A stretch of DNA of 64,000 nt from Arthrobacter subterraneus (lineage in GTDB: Bacteria; Actinomycetota; Actinomycetes; Actinomycetales; Micrococcaceae). The stretch lies in contig NZ_FNDT01000005.1 in the NCBI RefSeq assembly GCF_900099735.1, positions 1 through 64,000 of the forward strand. Direction: 5' to 3'. Position numbers and translations under genes: made by a program. Below the pieces are notes generated by a model. The model did no database searches, was not told the origin of the DNA, and saw only the letters and a list, made by a program, of their open reading frames with translations. Positions within the stretch are counted from its first letter, which is position 1. Every line of letters starts with the position of its first letter. Shown one piece after another: positions 1-11,835 of this stretch.

Positions 1-24
1 CTCTTCGGGAAAGGCCTTGGGCAT
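1..24 (-). mobile_element. Start of an IS3-type transposase OrfA (partial, runs off window)
   Basis: Read on the minus strand from position 24, the first eight codons give MPKAFPEE, a beginning I recognise from actinobacterial IS3-family OrfA (HTH) transposases. A GGAAGG Shine-Dalgarno lies about nine bases upstream. The rest of the gene is outside the window, so neither its integrity nor the insertion-sequence ends can be judged. It fits the mobile character of the next 2.3 kb. Only eight residues support the call, so it remains tentative. Confidence 0.5.
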
Positions 25-161
25 GATGAACATCCTTCCACCCGCGAGGTTAATCCTCACAGGTCAGGAGTCAACCAAACCTTCAGCAGTCCCTTGATCC
101 CGATTACATGTAGTTCGAGTTGAGCATCAGGAGGCACCGTGCAGGTCTATAGGACCGTGCG

Positions 162-677
162 ATGACCTCGGACGAAGCGTGGATCATCGTCGAGCGTGCA
201 GGCTTGATGGTGGGTTTTGTGGGTCTAGCCATTGCGATATGGCAGATAATCAAGACCAGGGGTGCGGTCGAAACAGCAAAGACAACAATCGAAGAATCGG
301 TTTCGGGTCTGAGGGCCGGCTCTTTGCTTCTGTTGACTCAGCAACTCGGTGCCTGCGAAGCAGAGTTGGTGCAAGCGATGCGCGCCTCCAATGGCAGTCT
401 CTTTGTCAAGCTTTGCAGTCAGTGGAAGTCTGAGGCTAGTCAGCTGAGAGGACTGCTCAGCTCAGATGAAACGATCGAGAGCGATTACCTTCGGGATATT
501 CAGCACTCAATCGGCTGCGCTGGCACCGTCGGCATTCATTACGCTGAGACCCCTGAGACTGAATCGTTCGAACTGCAGGACCAAGCCCACGCCGTTCTCC
601 TCGCCGTTGACAAAGTGACTGGTGAGTTTGGTTTCATCGCACAAAGAGCACTTGAGAGGTCAGTTGGCAATGTTTGA
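162..677 (+). CDS. Hypothetical protein with one N-terminal membrane segment
   Basis: 171 residues. One hydrophobic segment lies near residues 13-29 (GLMVGFVGLAIAIWQI), followed by a soluble, helix-rich domain; this suggests a membrane-anchored protein with a cytoplasmic tail. I recognise no catalytic motif or family. An AGGA element seven bases upstream supports this ATG. The gene overlaps the next one by eight bases, so the two are probably translationally coupled and may act together. Base composition looks clearly lower in GC than the PTS operon and later genes, consistent with acquired DNA next to the transposase start and the tRNA fragment. Confidence 0.6.
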   Translation: MTSDEAWIIVERAGLMVGFVGLAIAIWQIIKTRGAVETAKTTIEESVSGLRAGSLLLLTQQLGACEAELVQAMRASNGSLFVKLCSQWKSEASQLRGLLSSDETIESDYLRDIQHSIGCAGTVGIHYAETPETESFELQDQAHAVLLAVDKVTGEFGFIAQRALERSVGNV

Positions 678-1002
678 AGTGAACGACTACGTCGAACGAA
701 CCATCCGAAAGCTTATTCATCTCACGAAAGCTGAGCGGGTCAAATGGAAGAAGACAGGAGAGAACAGCTACTCCTATTCGACGAGCAACGCAACGGTCAC
801 CATGTCTAAGAACTTGTTTGTGGGAAGCCCTGTTTTCACCATGCTCGATTCCGAAGGCGAGGAAATTGAGCGCATTGATCGACCAAGGATTGGCCTCTCG
901 TCCGGAGTCGAGATTGAAATGCTCTGGGACGCGATCATGTCGCAGGAAAGCGCCTCACAGGACGCAGTAAAACGATTCCTCAATGATCTCGACAGCCTCT
1001 GA
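670..1002 (+). CDS. Hypothetical small protein coupled to the preceding gene
   Basis: 110 residues starting MFEVNDYVER. I chose the ATG at 670, which overlaps the end of the upstream gene by eight bases, because GAGAGG lies about ten bases ahead; an upstream in-frame start at 622 lies deep in the previous gene. The protein is charged and soluble, with no signal or membrane segment and no recognised motif. It most likely works with the membrane-anchored protein encoded just upstream. Low GC matches the rest of this end of the window. Confidence 0.55.
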   Translation: MFEVNDYVERTIRKLIHLTKAERVKWKKTGENSYSYSTSNATVTMSKNLFVGSPVFTMLDSEGEEIERIDRPRIGLSSGVEIEMLWDAIMSQESASQDAVKRFLNDLDSL

Positions 1003-1063
1003 CCTCTCCCTTGGCGTTTCTTGACACATTCGCAAAGCGATCACCCTGCGCCCGTCCAGGCCG

Positions 1064-2026
1064 CTAAACGAAAATCGCCATAGGCAGTATCTGCACGGCT
1101 GGTCCAGCAACGATTACAGGTTCGGGGCTCCCCTCAGACTGCATCTGACTGAAGCCATCGATAACGCCCTGCGCGAGTTCGGCATTCACTGCGCCGAGGA
1201 CGGTTCGTCGAGAAAGGTTGATGGACTCGTCCGCTGTGAATACGCGGGTAACCTTCCCCACTACTGTGAAATCGCCAGACTTCAAGTACTCGTTCGTCGC
1301 GGATGTGTAAAAATCGGACGAAACCGTCAGAACTGAGGAAAGACCTTCATCAGTCCTCATCAGCAGATCGTGGACATGGGCAGATCGTATGTCTTCGGCC
1401 ATCTTGGCCACGAGGGCAACACCTTCCGATTCCAGTCCTGAATTGTTCTCAGGTTCTTTCGTATCGGTCGTTGCTGCTGATCTTACAGCTGGGTTGCCTG
1501 AGCGCTTCGCTTTGGCCCGGGTGGGCTGCGCAGGTCCAGGGGAAGCGTCTTGCTGCGTTTTCAAGTACCCAACCAGCGAGTCGACAAAAATCAGCATGTC
1601 CTCTAAGGGATTGCCGAGATAACGTCCATTGATCTCGACGAGACGGCCACTCGTGATACCGGCCAACTCTGAATTGTTTGTGACCGACGTTAGCTGACCA
1701 TCTTCCCGCAAATACTTGTATAGCGCGTTGAACAAGCTCGCGGATGTGTGGTGGCGGTTGGTGGTGACCTCGCTGTTGGATTCATCTCTACTTTGAGTTG
1801 ACCCATCACCACCCACGTTGACATCAGCAACAAGGGGGAGGTTGAACCGGAAGCCGGTCCGAGCGGCTAAAAGACGGTCTCGAAAGCCACCTTGGCGTGT
1901 GACTTCCTCTTCATCTGTGGATATGCCACCCTCAAGGTGGGCCAAAAAGCTAGTCATCATAGGCGTGTCCAGATACACAGGATGGTGCAGAAAGTATGGC
2001 GGTTCCTCAATAGCGTCAGCGGTCAC
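1064..2026 (-). CDS. Hypothetical protein, possibly DUF6414-like
   Basis: About 320 residues. The N-terminal pattern (PVYLDTPMMTSFLAHLEGG) recalls uncharacterised DUF6414-type proteins, which open with a similar YLD...L.GG segment; this is a memory-based resemblance and unverified. A Ser/Pro/Lys-rich low-complexity linker occupies roughly residues 160-200. Two GTG codons compete for the start: the one at 2032 sits only two bases from GGAG, whereas the GTG at 2026 has an eight-base spacing and is preferred. The gene is convergent with the two hypothetical genes to its left and shares their lower GC. Function unknown. Confidence 0.5.
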   Translation of the reverse strand: MTADAIEEPPYFLHHPVYLDTPMMTSFLAHLEGGISTDEEEVTRQGGFRDRLLAARTGFRFNLPLVADVNVGGDGSTQSRDESNSEVTTNRHHTSASLFNALYKYLREDGQLTSVTNNSELAGITSGRLVEINGRYLGNPLEDMLIFVDSLVGYLKTQQDASPGPAQPTRAKAKRSGNPAVRSAATTDTKEPENNSGLESEGVALVAKMAEDIRSAHVHDLLMRTDEGLSSVLTVSSDFYTSATNEYLKSGDFTVVGKVTRVFTADESINLSRRTVLGAVNAELAQGVIDGFSQMQSEGSPEPVIVAGPAVQILPMAIFV

Positions 2027-2268
2027 TAGCACTTCTCCATTCCGTCCGTGTATGAGCCGTTGACCATGGTATCGACGCGTGGCCTGGCCAAGGCCTCCGA
2101 CACCCCGAGAATGCCTGAGCCTAAGCTAAGACGAGGTACAAATGTCTGTTCATGCCCGGCACGGTTTCCGACTTTCGTCGGAGGGGATTTGGAGGGGATG
2201 CCCCGTTCTCGGGCAAAAGAAAACCGCCCAGCGACTGAGCTACTTCCCAGTGCTTGAGCGGTTCTTGA

Positions 2269-2313
2269 TGGAGCCCCCTGTCGGATTCGAACCGACGACC
2301 CCCGCTTTACAAG
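2269..2313 (-). tRNA. Severed 3' half of a tRNA-Thr(TGT), likely attachment-site scar
   Basis: On the minus strand this stretch reads as anticodon loop CTTGTAA (anticodon TGT), the 3' anticodon-stem strand, variable loop, a perfect T arm (GTCGG-TTCGAAT-CCGAC) and AGGGGGC-T-CCA. The 5' half is absent: no CCCCCT acceptor strand or D arm occurs in the next 100 bases, and the sequence just 5' cannot pair with the anticodon-stem remnant. Homology to a tRNA thus starts at the anticodon loop, the usual crossover place for tyrosine integrases. It is not a functional tRNA. Confidence 0.8.
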
Positions 2314-2708
2314 ACAAGAGTAGCTCCAAGAGTGCTGTGGTTCGCGGGACATTGTCGATCAGCATTCGCTGACCCGTTCACACGGATGGGACCGTGGCCG
2401 TCCATCATCGACAAACTGAGCACCTTCGAGTGCAGCTAATGTCGAAGAACTTCCCCTACATCTCCTGCTGGGGAATGATGAACGGGTGCGGCACGCCCTG
2501 CGCGATCGGGTCTGCCGGTTCTCGGTCCACACGATCTACCGGTCCCACTCGGACCGGCACCGCAGCGCGCACCAGGTGCCCAATCAGTTTCCCGAAGACC
2601 TTCGATCCGTGGCGAGTAGCATCGCGATCTCCATAGCCACATCCCCGCAGAGCGGTAGTGGCTGACGCCGTCGTCGTCGTTCAATCCATCAGTCTCTAGG
2701 GCAGAAAA
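2314..2708. other. Gene-free stretch beside the tRNA fragment; possible gene remnant
   Basis: About 400 bases with no convincing complete gene. One plus-strand frame is open from about 2422 to 2663 and reads like the C-terminal end of a real protein (HTIYRSHSDRHRSAHQVPNQ is a piece), but it has no start codon or ribosome-binding site after the upstream in-frame stop. It may be the tail of a decayed gene. Nothing else is seen until the PTS-operon terminator. Confidence 0.3.
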
Positions 2709-2750: not shown

Positions 2751-4286
2751 CTACTCAGCCTTCTGAGCCACGCTCGCCGACTTCCGCTCCTCAGCCTTGC
2801 GGGCCTTCTCCGCATCGAGGCGTGCCTTCTCCTCAGCCTTCAAACCATCCAGCCATTCCTGGCGGTTCGAGCCCGGCACCCAGCCCGTATCCACGAACTT
2901 CCGCTGGAAGAAGATGGCCGCGGTCACCAGTGCCACCGCAATCAGGATGGTCATGATGACGCTCAGCGTGGTTCCGCCCAGCAGGCTGACACCGATCAGG
3001 GTGCCGAACCAGCCGAAGTCGGCATCGCCGAACGTGCTGTTGGAGAACCCGAGCTCGCCGAGCACCAGCAGGAGGATCGCCGGCAGGATGGTGATGATCA
3101 CGCCGTTCACAAAACCGCCGATCACAGCGCCCTTGCGGCCGCCCGTCGCGTTCCCGTACACGCCGGCACCGCCGCCGGTGAAGAAGTGCGGAACCATGCC
3201 GGGCAGAATCAGCGCCAGCCCAAACATCGGGTTCAGCCACAGTGCAAGGATTCCGAGGCTGATCAGGCCGCCGGCGAACGAGCTGAGGAACCCGATCAGC
3301 ACAGCGTTGGCACCGAAAGGGAACACGATCGGGATATCCAGCGCCGGCTTCGCACCGGGCACAACCTTCTCGGCGATGCCCTGGAACGCGGGAACCAGCT
3401 CGCCCAGGACCGTGCGGACGCCATACAGGATGACCGCTACACCAACACCGAACTGAAGCGCCAGGCCAAAGCCTTCCATAATGAATGCGCCGGCGTCTGC
3501 CACACCGAAGATCGCCAAGGCCTCATCCAGCGGAAGGGCAATCAATCCCCAGACGGCGAAGACAAGGTAGATCAGGACCATGGACAGCGAGGTAGCAACC
3601 ATGGAGTCACGCAGGAACTTGAGGCCCTGCGGGAACTGGATGTCCTCGGTGGACTTGCTCCGCCGGCCGACAACCTGGCCCGAGGCGCCTGCGGCGATGT
3701 AGCCCAGGGTGCCGAAGTGGCCGATCGCGATGGTGTCATTCCCCGTGATCTTCTTCGTCCAGGGATGGGCGAACGCCGGCATGACCACCATGATGACGCC
3801 GAGCAGCACCGCTCCGATGAGCACCACCAGCCAGCTCAGGCCGTCCCCGAATCCGACCGATAGCACCACAGTAAGCATGGTCGCCATGAACACCATGTGG
3901 TGCCCGGTCAGGAACACGTACTTCAGCGGCGTGAAACGTGCCAGCAAAAGCATCACGATGAACCCGAGCGTCAGGACGTAAGCGCTCTGCGCACCGAACT
4001 CTTCCTGGGCAAGCGCGGTAATGACCTCATTGGTAGGGATCACACCCTGCGCACCGGTCACGGCGAGGATCAGGACGCCCAGCGGATCCAGCGAACCGAC
4101 CACCACCGTTGCGCCGGCACCTAGGATGAGGAACCCCAGCGCTGCTTTCAGTGCGCCTCCGATGACCTGCCCGGAATTGCGCCTCATGGCCATCAAACCA
4201 ATGGCGGTGATGATGCCGATCAGGTAGGCCGGCACATTGAGGATCTGCTGACCAATAAAGTTCAGTACTACGACGAGCCACTCCAT
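2751..4286 (-). CDS. ulaA: PTS ascorbate-type permease, IIC component
   Basis: 511 residues, highly hydrophobic with roughly eleven membrane segments. It is recognisable as a UlaA/SgaT-family IIC (N-terminal NFIGQQILNVPAYLIGIITA; internal NEVITALAQEEFGAQ and GNDTIAIGHFGTLGY). The family imports L-ascorbate or a related sugar acid with phosphorylation by the partner IIB. Beyond the usual length is a charged, probably cytoplasmic C-terminal tail from about residue 470, rich in Lys, Glu and Ala. It is the last gene of the minus-strand order ROK, IIA, IIB, IIC, 39 bases after IIB. Substrate is inferred from the family only; no lactonase or UlaD/E/F genes accompany it here. Confidence 0.85.
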   Translation of the reverse strand: MEWLVVVLNFIGQQILNVPAYLIGIITAIGLMAMRRNSGQVIGGALKAALGFLILGAGATVVVGSLDPLGVLILAVTGAQGVIPTNEVITALAQEEFGAQSAYVLTLGFIVMLLLARFTPLKYVFLTGHHMVFMATMLTVVLSVGFGDGLSWLVVLIGAVLLGVIMVVMPAFAHPWTKKITGNDTIAIGHFGTLGYIAAGASGQVVGRRSKSTEDIQFPQGLKFLRDSMVATSLSMVLIYLVFAVWGLIALPLDEALAIFGVADAGAFIMEGFGLALQFGVGVAVILYGVRTVLGELVPAFQGIAEKVVPGAKPALDIPIVFPFGANAVLIGFLSSFAGGLISLGILALWLNPMFGLALILPGMVPHFFTGGGAGVYGNATGGRKGAVIGGFVNGVIITILPAILLLVLGELGFSNSTFGDADFGWFGTLIGVSLLGGTTLSVIMTILIAVALVTAAIFFQRKFVDTGWVPGSNRQEWLDGLKAEEKARLDAEKARKAEERKSASVAQKAE

Positions 4287-6434: not shown

Positions 6435-8477
6435 GTGTATACCAAAGTGACGTCCGTGACTAGAGAACTTTCTACCGCCGTCGTCTTCCCCGCTGCACTT
6501 GATGCTCGCGCAGTCGCGGCCGCTCAGGCGATTCCACCCTTCCTTGTGCAGCAGAAAGGGCATGGGCACGCCGGGACCGCAATGGCATTGGCGCCATTGT
6601 CCCATGTCCTTTTCTCCAGGGTCCTGCGGCACTCTCCCCGGCATCCCCAGTGGCCGGCAAGGGACCGGTTTGTCCTGTCCGCCGGGCATGCGAGCCTGCT
6701 GCTCTACATCCAGCTGTACTTCACCGGGTATGGCCTGACGCTGGAGGACCTCGCGGCCAGCCGTTCGCTGGGGTCACGGACGCCGGGTCATCCCGAGGTG
6801 CACCACACGGTCGGTGTTGAAATGAGCACGGGACCATTGGGGCAGGGTGTGGCATCCGCCGTCGGCATGGCTATGGCGGCCAGGCGGGAGTCGGCTGTTC
6901 TCACGCCGGGCTCGGATCATCTGGAGCACACCATCTGGGCGCTGGCCGGTGACGGCTGCCTGCAGGAGGGGGTGTCCTCCGAGGCCTCCAGTCTCGCGGG
7001 CAGCCTGGGTCTGGATAACCTCGTGCTCATCTGGGATGACAACGGGATCACCATCGACGCCGACACCAGCGGCACCTTCGCCGAGGACGTCCGCGCCCGG
7101 TACCGGGCCTACGGGTGGCGGGTCCTCGAAATTGACGACGCCACTGACCTCGACGGAATCGAGTCCGTCCTTCGCACTGCCGCCGAGCGGACCGGTCAGC
7201 CCACGCTTGTTGCGGTGAAGACCGTCATCGGAACGCCGTCGGCCAGGTTCGGCGGTACGCCGGCAGCCCACTCCGGCGGGTTCGGTGCGGACGAGCTCGC
7301 GCGCGTGCTGGAATCGCTGGGCTATGCGCCCGACGCCTCCCTGGAGGAATTCGCCGACGCTGAGGTTCTTCGCCACACCCGCGCGGCCGCCGACCGCGGG
7401 GATGAGCTGTACTCCGCCTGGCAGGACCGGCACAATGCGTGGGCTTCGGAGCAGCCCGATGCTGCTGCGCGCTGGGAAAGCTTCCGTGCCGGCCATCTCG
7501 ACTCCTCGACCCTGTCCCGAGTGCCTACCGGTTCGCCCGGAGACCTGGTGGCTACGCGCAAGACCAACGGTGCGGTCCTCACTGCCCTGCAGGACACCGT
7601 CCAGCTCTGGGGCGGCTCGGCGGATTTGAGCGGCTCGACCAATGTCAGCGTGGCAGGCAAGCCGTTCTCGGCGTCGAACCCTGCCGGAGAGTTCATCCGA
7701 TTCGGCATTCGCGAGCACGCCATGGCCGCAATCCTCAGCGGCATCGCGCTGCATGGACCGTGGCGTCCGTTCGGATCGACGTACCTCGTGTTCAGCGACT
7801 ACATGCGGCCGAGCATCCGGCTGGCTGCGCTCATGAAACTCGGCGTGATCTACGTGTTCACCCATGACTCCGTCGCCGTGGGCGAGGACGGGCCCACGCA
7901 TCAGCCGGTGGAGCAGATTGCCTCCCTGCGTACGGTCCCGGGGCTCGACGTCGTCCGGCCTGCCGACGCGGTGGAGGTCGCGGCGGTGTGGCAGCGGATC
8001 ATTGCCTCGCCGGATCGTCCGGTGGCGCTGGTGCTGAGCCGGCAGGATGTGCCGGTACTAACGTCCGACGACGCCACCGCCGACGGTGCCAGACGAGGCG
8101 GCTTTGTCCGCTGGCAGAGCGGCGAGGGGAACGAAGTCGCGCTGCTTGCCACCGGCAGCGAAGTGTCCCTGGCGATCGAGGCGGCAAGCGTACTCGAGGC
8201 CGACGGCATCGCGGCGAGAGTGATCTCGATACCGTGTGTTGAGTGGTTCAGCGAAGCGGACGGTGACTATCGGGAGTCGGTGCTTCCGGCGTCGTTGACG
8301 GCGCGGGTGGTGATCGAAGCCGGCAGGGGTGACGCCTGGTACCGGTGGGCAGGGTCCGCCCGCGAGGTGGTCTCCATCGAGGAGTTCGGTGAGTCCGGTT
8401 CCGGCGCGGAAATCATGCGCCTGCGCGGTATCCACCTCGAGGCGGTGCTGGAGGCCGCGCGGCGGGTTCTGCGCTGA
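6435..8477 (+). CDS. Transketolase-like thiamine-diphosphate enzyme (full length)
   Basis: Up to 680 residues, normal for a one-chain transketolase. It transfers two-carbon ketol units between sugar phosphates with ThDP and Mg2+. Visible: VLSAGHASLLLY, GPLGQGVASAVGMA, the ThDP/Mg site GDGCLQEGVSSEASSLAG, and in the pyrimidine domain FGIREHAMAAI, YLVFSDYMRPS and HDSVAVGEDGPTHQPVE. The first substrate-binding loop is unusual (GHGHAGTAMAL instead of SGHPG-like). The start is uncertain: GTGs at 6435, 6447 and 6456 are all possible and none has a clear ribosome-binding site. Divergent from the ROK gene and next to an ascorbate-type PTS, so perhaps a dedicated isozyme for pentose phosphates from that route. 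Confidence 0.85.
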   Translation: MYTKVTSVTRELSTAVVFPAALDARAVAAAQAIPPFLVQQKGHGHAGTAMALAPLSHVLFSRVLRHSPRHPQWPARDRFVLSAGHASLLLYIQLYFTGYGLTLEDLAASRSLGSRTPGHPEVHHTVGVEMSTGPLGQGVASAVGMAMAARRESAVLTPGSDHLEHTIWALAGDGCLQEGVSSEASSLAGSLGLDNLVLIWDDNGITIDADTSGTFAEDVRARYRAYGWRVLEIDDATDLDGIESVLRTAAERTGQPTLVAVKTVIGTPSARFGGTPAAHSGGFGADELARVLESLGYAPDASLEEFADAEVLRHTRAAADRGDELYSAWQDRHNAWASEQPDAAARWESFRAGHLDSSTLSRVPTGSPGDLVATRKTNGAVLTALQDTVQLWGGSADLSGSTNVSVAGKPFSASNPAGEFIRFGIREHAMAAILSGIALHGPWRPFGSTYLVFSDYMRPSIRLAALMKLGVIYVFTHDSVAVGEDGPTHQPVEQIASLRTVPGLDVVRPADAVEVAAVWQRIIASPDRPVALVLSRQDVPVLTSDDATADGARRGGFVRWQSGEGNEVALLATGSEVSLAIEAASVLEADGIAARVISIPCVEWFSEADGDYRESVLPASLTARVVIEAGRGDAWYRWAGSAREVVSIEEFGESGSGAEIMRLRGIHLEAVLEAARRVLR

Positions 8478-10374: not shown

Positions 10375-11571
10375 TCAGTCCGCAAGTTCCCGGCGCCGGA
10401 ACCTCAGTTCCCGCTTCGCTCCGTTGAGCGGTGAACCGCTGAATGGGAGCTGGTCCAAATCGATCGATTTGGCCGCGGTAAGCGCGAGCCCGATTGCTGT
10501 TTTCACGGCCCGTTCCGGCAGCCCGAGAGTATCCGCAAATTCCGCCCAATGCTTCGCTTTCAGGTTCCTGATTCTGCCCGCAATCGGCAGCGCCATCGTG
10601 TTGTCGCCATAGAGCAACGTGCATGGGATGTCGTAGACCGGCGCCACCACGAAATCTCCACGTGTACTACCCAGTACCGACACATTCTTCGCGTGAAGGT
10701 CACCGTTCCCTGTAAGCCACGCGAAAAGGAACTGAAGGTAGAGGTTGCGGCGAGCGATGGCGCCGGCTTTGCAGACTCCTGCCAGAGCCAGGACAACTTC
10801 CTCGGCATCGACCCCGTATTTTGCACCCGGAGGCAGGTTCAGCACTTGAGTGGCGTCCTCCTGCGGCAGACGCTGAAGCGCGCCGGCTTCCCAGCGCCTG
10901 TCGAACCGTTCGACCAGCAGCCCGGGCAACATGTTCCGGTCTGCTACGAGAGAACTTCGCGTTACCGGAATCTTCAAAGCCTTCGCGCCTGCCAAATGCA
11001 TAGCCTCGTTGTGAATCAAGTGCGGGTACTCCGGAGGATTCAACTTGAGGATGTACCGACGCCTCTGAATTGCCAGCGGCACGGTAAGCATGGAGGCACT
11101 GGCCTTGGCTTGAACACCCGGCAGAGCGTGCAGATCTACGGCGTCGAATAACGAGGCGAAGTCGGTTTCTTCGGGCGAAGTTGCGTTGGCAGCCGCCTTT
11201 GGTTCAGCCGGCGCTTCACCGTGAGGGACAACTTGCACATCGCCTGGAACATCTGCGCCGACCGCCAGCAGGAGAGTCAACTCGTCATCAAGGCTGGTCT
11301 TCACAGCCCTGCGCAGCAGGCTCAGCCTGTACCCTTCCGGCAACAGGCCCGCGAAAAACGCGGGCAGGGAGCCGGCAGGTGTCTCGACCGCGCTTTCGGT
11401 CAACGGCAACGTGGTGGCAATAGGACGTGAGCCGCTCCCCAGGAAGTCCGTGGTGTAGGAAAAGCGTGTTCCGGCGGAGGATGTCCGCTCCAAATGTCCG
11501 GCGAGCACTCCGTTCTGATAGACGTCGGATTTGCGGATGAACCGCAGATCCTGCAGGTCCGAGCCCCTCAC
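10375..11571 (-). CDS. hipA: HipA-type toxin, serine/threonine kinase
   Basis: 398 residues, normal full-length HipA: an N-terminal beta-barrel domain (about 1-110, with SLPAFFAGLLPEGYRL) and a kinase core with KLNPPEYPHLIHNEAMHL, the catalytic loop GNGDLHAKN and the metal-binding segment APVYDIPCTLLYGD. Known HipA toxins phosphorylate aminoacyl-tRNA synthetases (GltX in E. coli) and cause growth arrest and persistence. The start overlaps the end of hipB by four bases (ATGA), so the pair is coupled. All key catalytic residues are visible, so the toxin is probably active. Control is likely by HipB-HipA binding to three upstream operators. Confidence 0.9.
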   Translation of the reverse strand: MRGSDLQDLRFIRKSDVYQNGVLAGHLERTSSAGTRFSYTTDFLGSGSRPIATTLPLTESAVETPAGSLPAFFAGLLPEGYRLSLLRRAVKTSLDDELTLLLAVGADVPGDVQVVPHGEAPAEPKAAANATSPEETDFASLFDAVDLHALPGVQAKASASMLTVPLAIQRRRYILKLNPPEYPHLIHNEAMHLAGAKALKIPVTRSSLVADRNMLPGLLVERFDRRWEAGALQRLPQEDATQVLNLPPGAKYGVDAEEVVLALAGVCKAGAIARRNLYLQFLFAWLTGNGDLHAKNVSVLGSTRGDFVVAPVYDIPCTLLYGDNTMALPIAGRIRNLKAKHWAEFADTLGLPERAVKTAIGLALTAAKSIDLDQLPFSGSPLNGAKRELRFRRRELAD

Positions 11572-11774
11572 CGGACCTCCACCCGCAGGCCCAGCACCCT
11601 TGCAGCGGCAATCACTGCAGCCATCGAAGGGTTGCCCGTACCGGTTTCGATCGCTCGGATCGTTCGCTCCGACACCCCTGATAAATCGGCTAGGTCCCTC
11701 TGCGTGATCCCTGCCTGCTTTCGCGCGTCACGCACGCTTTTGGCGATCTCGTCGACGCCCTCAGAGCCATCCAT
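11568..11774 (-). CDS. hipB: HipB-type antitoxin, XRE DNA-binding protein
   Basis: 68 residues from the ATG at 11774 (MDGSEGVDEIAK). An XRE helix-turn-helix covers about residues 20-65 (GITQRDLADLSGVSERTIRAIE). I prefer this ATG to an in-frame GTG at 11816 because TATACT lies seven bases upstream, a classic leaderless arrangement, and there is no Shine-Dalgarno for either start. The first operator covers that -10 and the start codon, so bound HipB would block its own transcription. It is the first gene of the hipBA operon with a four-base overlap to hipA. Confidence 0.88.
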   Translation of the reverse strand: MDGSEGVDEIAKSVRDARKQAGITQRDLADLSGVSERTIRAIETGTGNPSMAAVIAAARVLGLRVEVR

Positions 11775-11804
11775 AATCGGCAGTATAGTGCCGATTATGG
11801 ATGG
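11767..11804. promoter_or_regulatory. hipBA operator 1, perfect 16-bp inverted repeat
   Basis: Two perfect 16-base arms separated by GTATAG, with core ATAATCGGCA and TGCCGATTAT. It covers the presumed -10 (TATACT on the minus strand) and the hipB start codon. The same core recurs twice upstream. Confidence 0.85.
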
Positions 11805-11835
11805 GTTTATAAGCACCGCACACCCTTTCCTACCT

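Follow-up and report, generated by a model that had tools for sequence, protein, structure and literature searches.

The window analysed here spans 64 kb from the start of C39, a contig of 231 kb in an Arthrobacter subterraneus assembly of 64 contigs. In the following, G000 stands for this genome, the other G numbers for related genomes, and L numbers for loci fetched for comparison.

The minus-strand sequence at 2266-2314 is identical over 49 of 49 bases to G000:C39:222181-222229 (own-genome sequence search, E 3.9e-19), part of which is enclosed by an intact tRNA-Thr(TGT) gene that ARAGORN places at C39:222184-222260 on the minus strand. This is the sole intact tRNA-Thr(TGT) found in the genome, and it lies 220 kb from the fragment on the same contig and strand, in the relative order expected for an attR site. 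The fragment consists of one stem base (2314), the gene from the 7-nt anticodon loop CTTGTAA (2307-2313, minus strand) through the encoded CCA (2269-2271), and three bases beyond the gene; its 5' edge falls one base outside the 7-nt loop in a gene of 77 nt. The original prediction had described 2269-2313 as the 3' half of a tRNA-Thr(TGT) from the anticodon loop to the CCA, which is accurate to within 1 to 3 bases, and the intact gene sharing the core that it proposed to look for is present. A chance match is ruled out by the identity and E value, and a second, cryptic tRNA gene by ARAGORN, which finds no tRNA gene in the window. The third of the three own-genome matches to the fragment (80%, C39:181779) is a tRNA-Arg(CCT) gene according to ARAGORN.

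The core of the tRNA-Thr gene follows the plan CCGCT-CTTGTAA-AGCGG, that is, 5-bp arms around a 7-bp spacer, and the anticodon loop is likely to be the crossover spacer of a tyrosine recombinase. The arm on the chromosomal side of our junction reads CTTGT, with 2 of 5 bases like the tRNA. The features around the fragment are listed below by window position.

1-95, no strand assigned: end of an IS3-family element at the contig start, with copies at the C59 start, the C46 end and the C24 end
162-677, plus strand: hypothetical gene in the low-GC stretch; one Pfam match far under the cut-off, none in PADLOC or PHROGs
622-1002, plus strand: hypothetical gene in the low-GC stretch; no Pfam, PADLOC or PHROGs match
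1064-2032, minus strand: gene for a DUF6414 protein of 322 aa, presumed element cargo (PF19952, E 6e-47)
2180-2199, minus strand: tandem repeat ATCCCCTCCAA/ATCCCCTCC with a period of 11 (9/9), presumed arm-type integrase binding sites of P'
2220-2265, minus strand: terminator-like hairpin just past the CCA, part of the presumed P' arm (folding; two overlapping terminator-like sites)
2266-2314, minus strand: tRNA-Thr(TGT) 3' part, an attachment core that begins at the anticodon loop and ends 3 bp past the CCA (49/49 identity to the intact gene)
2307-2313, minus strand: 7-nt anticodon loop CTTGTAA, presumed crossover spacer at the 5' edge of the fragment (from the sequence and its likeness to the ICEBs1 attB in the available portion of PMC3715440)
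2315-2348, no strand assigned: 34 bp between the core and recognisable chromosomal homology; not covered by any match listed for 38 genus and 395 family genomes
2349-2437, minus strand: remnant of an oxidoreductase gene 3' end, chromosomal (76% to G037:C1:2486523-2486610; 74% to G023 and G032)
2439-2648, minus strand: internal remnant of a thuA-like gene, chromosomal (82-87% to G037, G036, G012, G032, G018, G019 and G023)
2751-4286, minus strand: PTS EIIC-GAT, first gene of the intact chromosomal flank (PF03611, E 8.5e-124; matched in G012, G036, G037 and G017)

Genes and remnants on the two sides of the fragment

Over about 1-2.25 kb of the window the GC content is 52-56%; from 2.5 to 9 kb it is mostly 59-69%, falling to 57% near 4.5 kb. 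The step coincides with the fragment, and the arrangement first described for the locus, with low-GC genes on the left and a PTS operon on the right (EIIC-GAT at 2751-4286), holds. A DUF6414 match is found in 5 of 295 family genomes, namely our own, two at 46-47% identity and two weak ones. Both the GC step and the rarity of the DUF6414 gene are counted in favor of recombination at a secondary site, which is discussed below. Counted against it is that no gene for an integrase or excisionase, and none recognisable as a phage gene, is visible in the 2.2 kb to the left. The DUF6414 protein gave only two weak PHROG matches in the PADLOC and PHROGs searches, no tRNA was found in the stretches examined for its homologues in G032 and G224, and no literature mentioning DUF6414 was found.

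Contig C39 starts inside the IS3-family end, 2.2 kb from the fragment, where the name IS3 is based on the transposase annotation in plasmid matches. Contig C59 (L104, 7706 bp) begins at the same IS3 end, its last ~95 bp are the start of C62, and it carries genes that look, by eye, like a DNA cytosine methyltransferase and a GIY-YIG gene.

To the right of the fragment, the name oxidoreductase comes from reading the sequence and the name ThuA from the annotation of a plasmid match. The oxidoreductase, thuA and PTS genes of G037 have the same order and strand as here, with gaps of 1.2 kb and then of 4.3 kb between thuA and PTS, and the thuA piece lies 5.7 kb (G036) and 7.1 kb (G012) from the PTS match. 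The right side is therefore chromosome with losses compared to G037, G036 and G012. A look at the matching locus in relatives had also been suggested, and in the three that were read (G037, G023 and G032) the oxidoreductase 3' end is not adjoined by the fragment.

The 34 bp between the core and this homology have no covering match listed, our own genome apart, among 38 genus and 395 family genomes, where the best few candidates per genome were scored (the best two in the family set, with one genome per species), and against the comparison loci they give only chance-like matches of 12-14 bases. No empty secondary site was seen, the 34 bp right of the core aligning with no relative, and this is counted against recombination at such a site. 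The same holds for CGCGAACCACAG at 2335-2346, which is faintly like the P-arm motif CGGGAACCACCG of G014 and leaves room for an eroded attP. The stretch 2315-2348 also contains CCACAGCAC-TCTTG, resembling the tRNA-Thr 5' stretch CCAGAGCACCGCTCTTG with a 3-base gap, a likeness that could be chance or the trace of a degenerate site.

Further into the window, a HipA-like gene is located at 10375-11816 (PF07804, PF13657), its start overlapped by a small ORF that looks helix-turn-helix-like by eye. The two are a probable toxin-antitoxin pair of the HipBA type.

The 3' flank and its period-11 repeat

Directly past the CCA, the minus strand contains a hairpin followed by a T-rich tail, and the stretch 2213-2266 folds at -25.9 kcal/mol (z -4.55), with none of 200 shuffles being equally stable. 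The repeat stretch ATCCCCTCCAAATCCCCTCC, which has a period of 11, begins 72 bases from the first base of the CCA. A run of at least 8 at period 11 is seen in 0.1% of 20,000 base shuffles of the fragment's own flank, and a run of at least 9 at any period from 9 to 13 in 0.2% of such shuffles.

For 50 distinct sites bearing the core, among them the intact tRNA-Thr genes from 30 of 38 genus genomes, we took as the score the best 9-base repeat with a period of 11 found in the 3' flank; left unscored were sites that were not fetched, had too short a flank or had a core that the search pattern did not cover (the G014 attR fragment is one). The choice of 11 as the period came only after the sites had been seen, a point counted against recombination at a secondary site. 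Scores of at least 8 of 9 are reached by 11 of the 50 sites: our own fragment, sites in G018, G012, G014, G021 and G027, phage mu1/6, L132, L136, L137, and L028 from G025, which looks like a GC-rich chance case. The repeat starts 61-72 bases from the CCA in ten of these and at 50 bases in L137. Periods 9, 10 and 13 give no score of at least 8, and period 12 gives four.

Where the tRNA-Thr gene is followed by a second core copy at a distance of 14-26 kb downstream (G014, G012 and G027), it scores at least 8 in 3 of 3 cases, as do three of the five phage cores lacking the tRNA 5' half (mu1/6, L132 and L136); the remaining phage cores stay below (L130 at 7, L139 at 6), which is counted against recombination at a secondary site. 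Neither of the two scored attR fragments with chromosome on the 3' side reaches 8 (L099 at 4, L101 at 6), and the G012:C7 fragment (L102) scores 5. Among 25 intact tRNA-Thr genes of the genus for which no second copy is known, one reaches 8 (L028); G018 and G021, where the tRNA 5' half is intact, no second copy is known and the score is at least 8, were put in neither group. On phage contigs, the threshold is reached by one of nine tRNA-Thr genes with the same 5' half (L137) and by neither of the two with a diverged 5' half (L140 and L141). Where an element or phage adjoins the core, a hairpin (by eye) is followed by a period-11 repeat of differing sequence. Judged by this sequence layout, the 3' flank of the fragment has the anatomy of an element-side P' arm.

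No related element was found to carry the arm repeat of the fragment, which has one unrelated match in viral contigs and five in genome contigs of unrelated taxa, and this is counted against recombination at a secondary site. In four of these five genome loci ARAGORN detects no tRNA; in L144 there are two, about 2.8 kb off. In the loci L027 (G021) and L016/L103 (G018), which lie on short contigs, the period-11 arm repeat comes after an intact tRNA-Thr; these tRNA-Thr genes are probably occupied by elements whose far ends are unassembled.

The intact tRNA-Thr gene and the search for an integrase

The intact tRNA-Thr lies between a UDG-like gene (3' side) and DsbA (5' side), an arrangement that is alike in G036 and has a wider gap in G037, with most of the compared loci extending only 1.5 kb each way. 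Its 3' flank has a repeat score of 6 (L002), and the gene appears to carry no element. Other members of the genus do have elements there, with a further core copy at no less than 85% in three of the 37 other genus genomes (G014, G012 and G027), where the attR fragments beside the tRNA-Thr start within the same anticodon loop.

The PF00589 search of the 64-contig assembly gave four matches and no tyrosine integrase fitting a tRNA-Thr element. Two of the four proteins resemble XerC and XerD by sequence. Two of the matches lie on contig C62, beside what we take to be mercuric-reductase-like and MerR-like genes, and because of these neighbours the C62 pair was rejected as the missing integrase. 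On C62 (L113, 7359 bp), the two PF00589 genes are in tandem, with matches of similar open-frame lengths in G012:C11 and G027:C108; the locus looks like a recombinase-type transposon carrying mercury resistance.

The far flank, or second junction, was searched for in our own genome with the DNA of G037, G023 and G032, which gave the two known remnants and weak matches on C28 and C38, in an assembly of 64 contigs where C39 starts at an IS3 copy. The other end of the presumed element did not turn up in these searches, and this is counted against recombination at a secondary site. In G012, the stretch C7:346779-346820 (L102 6779-6820) is a tRNA-Thr 3' half without a 5' half, with an integrase gene (PF00589) at 5057-6220 of L102 on its 5' side, and is possibly an embedded attP. 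On the 3' side of this core, the ORF at 7209-7829 looks like an integrase N-terminus by eye and has no PF00589 match.

Possible origins of the fragment and comparison with known elements

Normal integration rebuilds the tRNA gene as 5' half-core-P' and leaves a far fragment that reads P-core-chromosome. The order here is chromosome-core-P', and the fragment is therefore not a usual displaced attR; a crossover between the core and a non-tRNA site yields such an order. We consider it probable that the fragment is the core and P' arm of a tyrosine-recombinase element, joined to non-tRNA chromosome by the integrase at a secondary site. The break lies at the crossover spacer of the core, one base beyond the 7-nt loop, with the element arm on one side and non-target chromosome on the other, save the 34 bp beside the core (2315-2348). 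The original prediction is partly supported: there is backing for an integration scar at a tRNA core, and it rightly saw the polarity as wrong for a displaced attR. Of the two ways out that it offered, loss of the element fits poorly with a P'-like arm and some cargo apparently still on the left, and arrival of the fragment as an attP copy fits poorly with a right side that lacks both an integrase and a clear P arm and has eroded chromosomal genes within 34 bp.

The element (prophage, island or ICE) would have had tRNA-Thr(TGT) as its normal target, and window positions 1-2265 would be its remainder beside the P' arm. A crossover by the integrase at the anticodon-loop spacer would have joined the core to a non-tRNA site near the oxidoreductase 3' end, creating a junction of chromosome-core-P' instead of tRNA 5' half-core-P'. 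The route may have been an off-target integration, or a deletion via the same reaction in which the integrated element recombined with a nearby chromosomal site and its integrase end was removed; the data do not separate the two. The integrase end may later have been lost or may lie beyond the contig break. What is observed is the copy, its 5' edge, the P'-like arm, a right flank of chromosome, a tRNA gene that looks unoccupied and a lack of any unassigned tyrosine integrase in the search; the crossover, its timing and the choice between integration and deletion are what we infer. The more specific idea that the integrase recombined the tRNA-Thr core with a secondary site close by, thereby deleting the integrase end of its own element along with flanking chromosomal genes and permanently stranding the DUF6414 gene and its neighbours as cargo, seems quite unlikely to us; if it were true, the locus would be a case of natural domestication by integrase-mediated self-deletion and not by gradual decay.

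An ordinary attR, with the tRNA 3' half displaced by an element at the intact tRNA-Thr and the element lying right of the fragment, would explain why the fragment is identical (49/49) to the 3' part of the intact gene in the same genome and why both are on one contig and strand in the right relative order, and three relatives show exactly such a layout with cores 14-26 kb apart. Its arms are on the wrong sides, however: 5' of the core there is no clear P arm and chromosomal homology begins 34 bp on, the 3' side scores as P' and unlike chromosome, the neighbours of the intact gene are plain chromosomal, and the fragment and the intact tRNA do not bound an element. In G037, whose genome is a single contig, 185 kb separate the PTS genes (near 2,479 kb) from tRNA-Thr (near 2,293 kb); their relative orientation is that of our own genome, and in both genomes thuA and oxidoreductase lie beyond the PTS genes as seen from tRNA-Thr. 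In addition, nine relatives have a 79-83% counterpart of the tRNA-Arg(CCT) site, whose tRNA identity was confirmed in our own genome alone, on the contig of their tRNA-Thr and at 33-73 kb from it. We regard an ordinary attR as highly improbable. A 220-kb island between the two copies is unlikely, since the intervening stretch is chromosome by the layout of G037.

A complete attP (P-core-P') could have entered otherwise, with an element or plasmid via an IS or homologous recombination, and then have lost its P arm and integrase by a deletion to within 34 bp of the core. The G012:C7:346779 core, with an integrase 5', a terminator-like flank 3' and no tRNA 5' half, gives a model for this, the stretch at 2335-2346 is faintly P-arm-like and IS3 copies are present; it is nevertheless unlikely, as the deletion would have to end near the crossover spacer, and the right-hand sequence that was read has neither an integrase nor P-arm repeats, with chromosomal homology starting 34 bp from the core. 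A chance rearrangement, mediated by an IS or repeats, that moved half of an occupied tRNA-Thr locus with no integrase involved would suit the eroded state of the locus, where the oxidoreductase and thuA pieces and the stretch between them have suffered losses compared to G037, and the IS3 end at 1-95. Against such a rearrangement, which we consider very unlikely, the break is at most one base from the spacer edge in a gene of 77 nt, and the intact tRNA-Thr is whole with its neighbourhood as in G036.

The attachment-core relic is real and well preserved, and an off-target, integrase-mediated origin is most likely. An element arm found 3' of a tRNA fragment would identify the junction as off-target and show on which side the foreign DNA lies, where a search assuming tRNA-bounded attR fragments would misplace it. 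The effect on general knowledge is small: the fragment is a fresh example of a known phenomenon, as secondary-site integration has already been described for ICEBs1. Another case is reportedly SGI1 (PMC2297512).

The available portion of PMC3715440 describes the attB of ICEBs1 from Bacillus subtilis as a 17-bp site whose 5-bp arms flank the 7-bp spacer in which the crossover takes place. It also describes integration at secondary sites that have 2 to 12 mismatches; from those tested, excision was reduced or undetectable. ICEBs1, as described there, resembles our case in its tRNA primary site, the same core plan and off-target junctions against non-tRNA genes; it differs in that whole-element insertions were isolated experimentally, whereas here there is one junction with 2.2 kb of presumed element in a natural genome. 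The tRNA-Thr elements of G014, G012 and G027, from the same genus, share the target gene, the core region and the P' plan with the fragment, but sit at the tRNA gene and have an attR fragment with chromosome on the 3' side.

The Streptomyces phage mu1/6 (DQ372923) matches 44 bp of the tRNA-Thr core at 97.7%. It has the same core, a period-11 repeat on the 3' side (8/9) and a hairpin by eye, whereas its integrase is 5' of the core (none here) and its arm repeat is unlike our own in sequence. None of the papers listed in a literature search was on mu1/6 by its title, and from the sequence match we take its core to be a probable attP with tRNA-Thr specificity.

Partial tRNA genes derived from mobile elements occur widely, according to the accessible part of PMC9897764, and the fragment resembles the cases in that part in being a partial tRNA gene left as a relic of integration. 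Those cases flank an island beside a complete tRNA gene, whereas our fragment has the opposite polarity and lies off-site.
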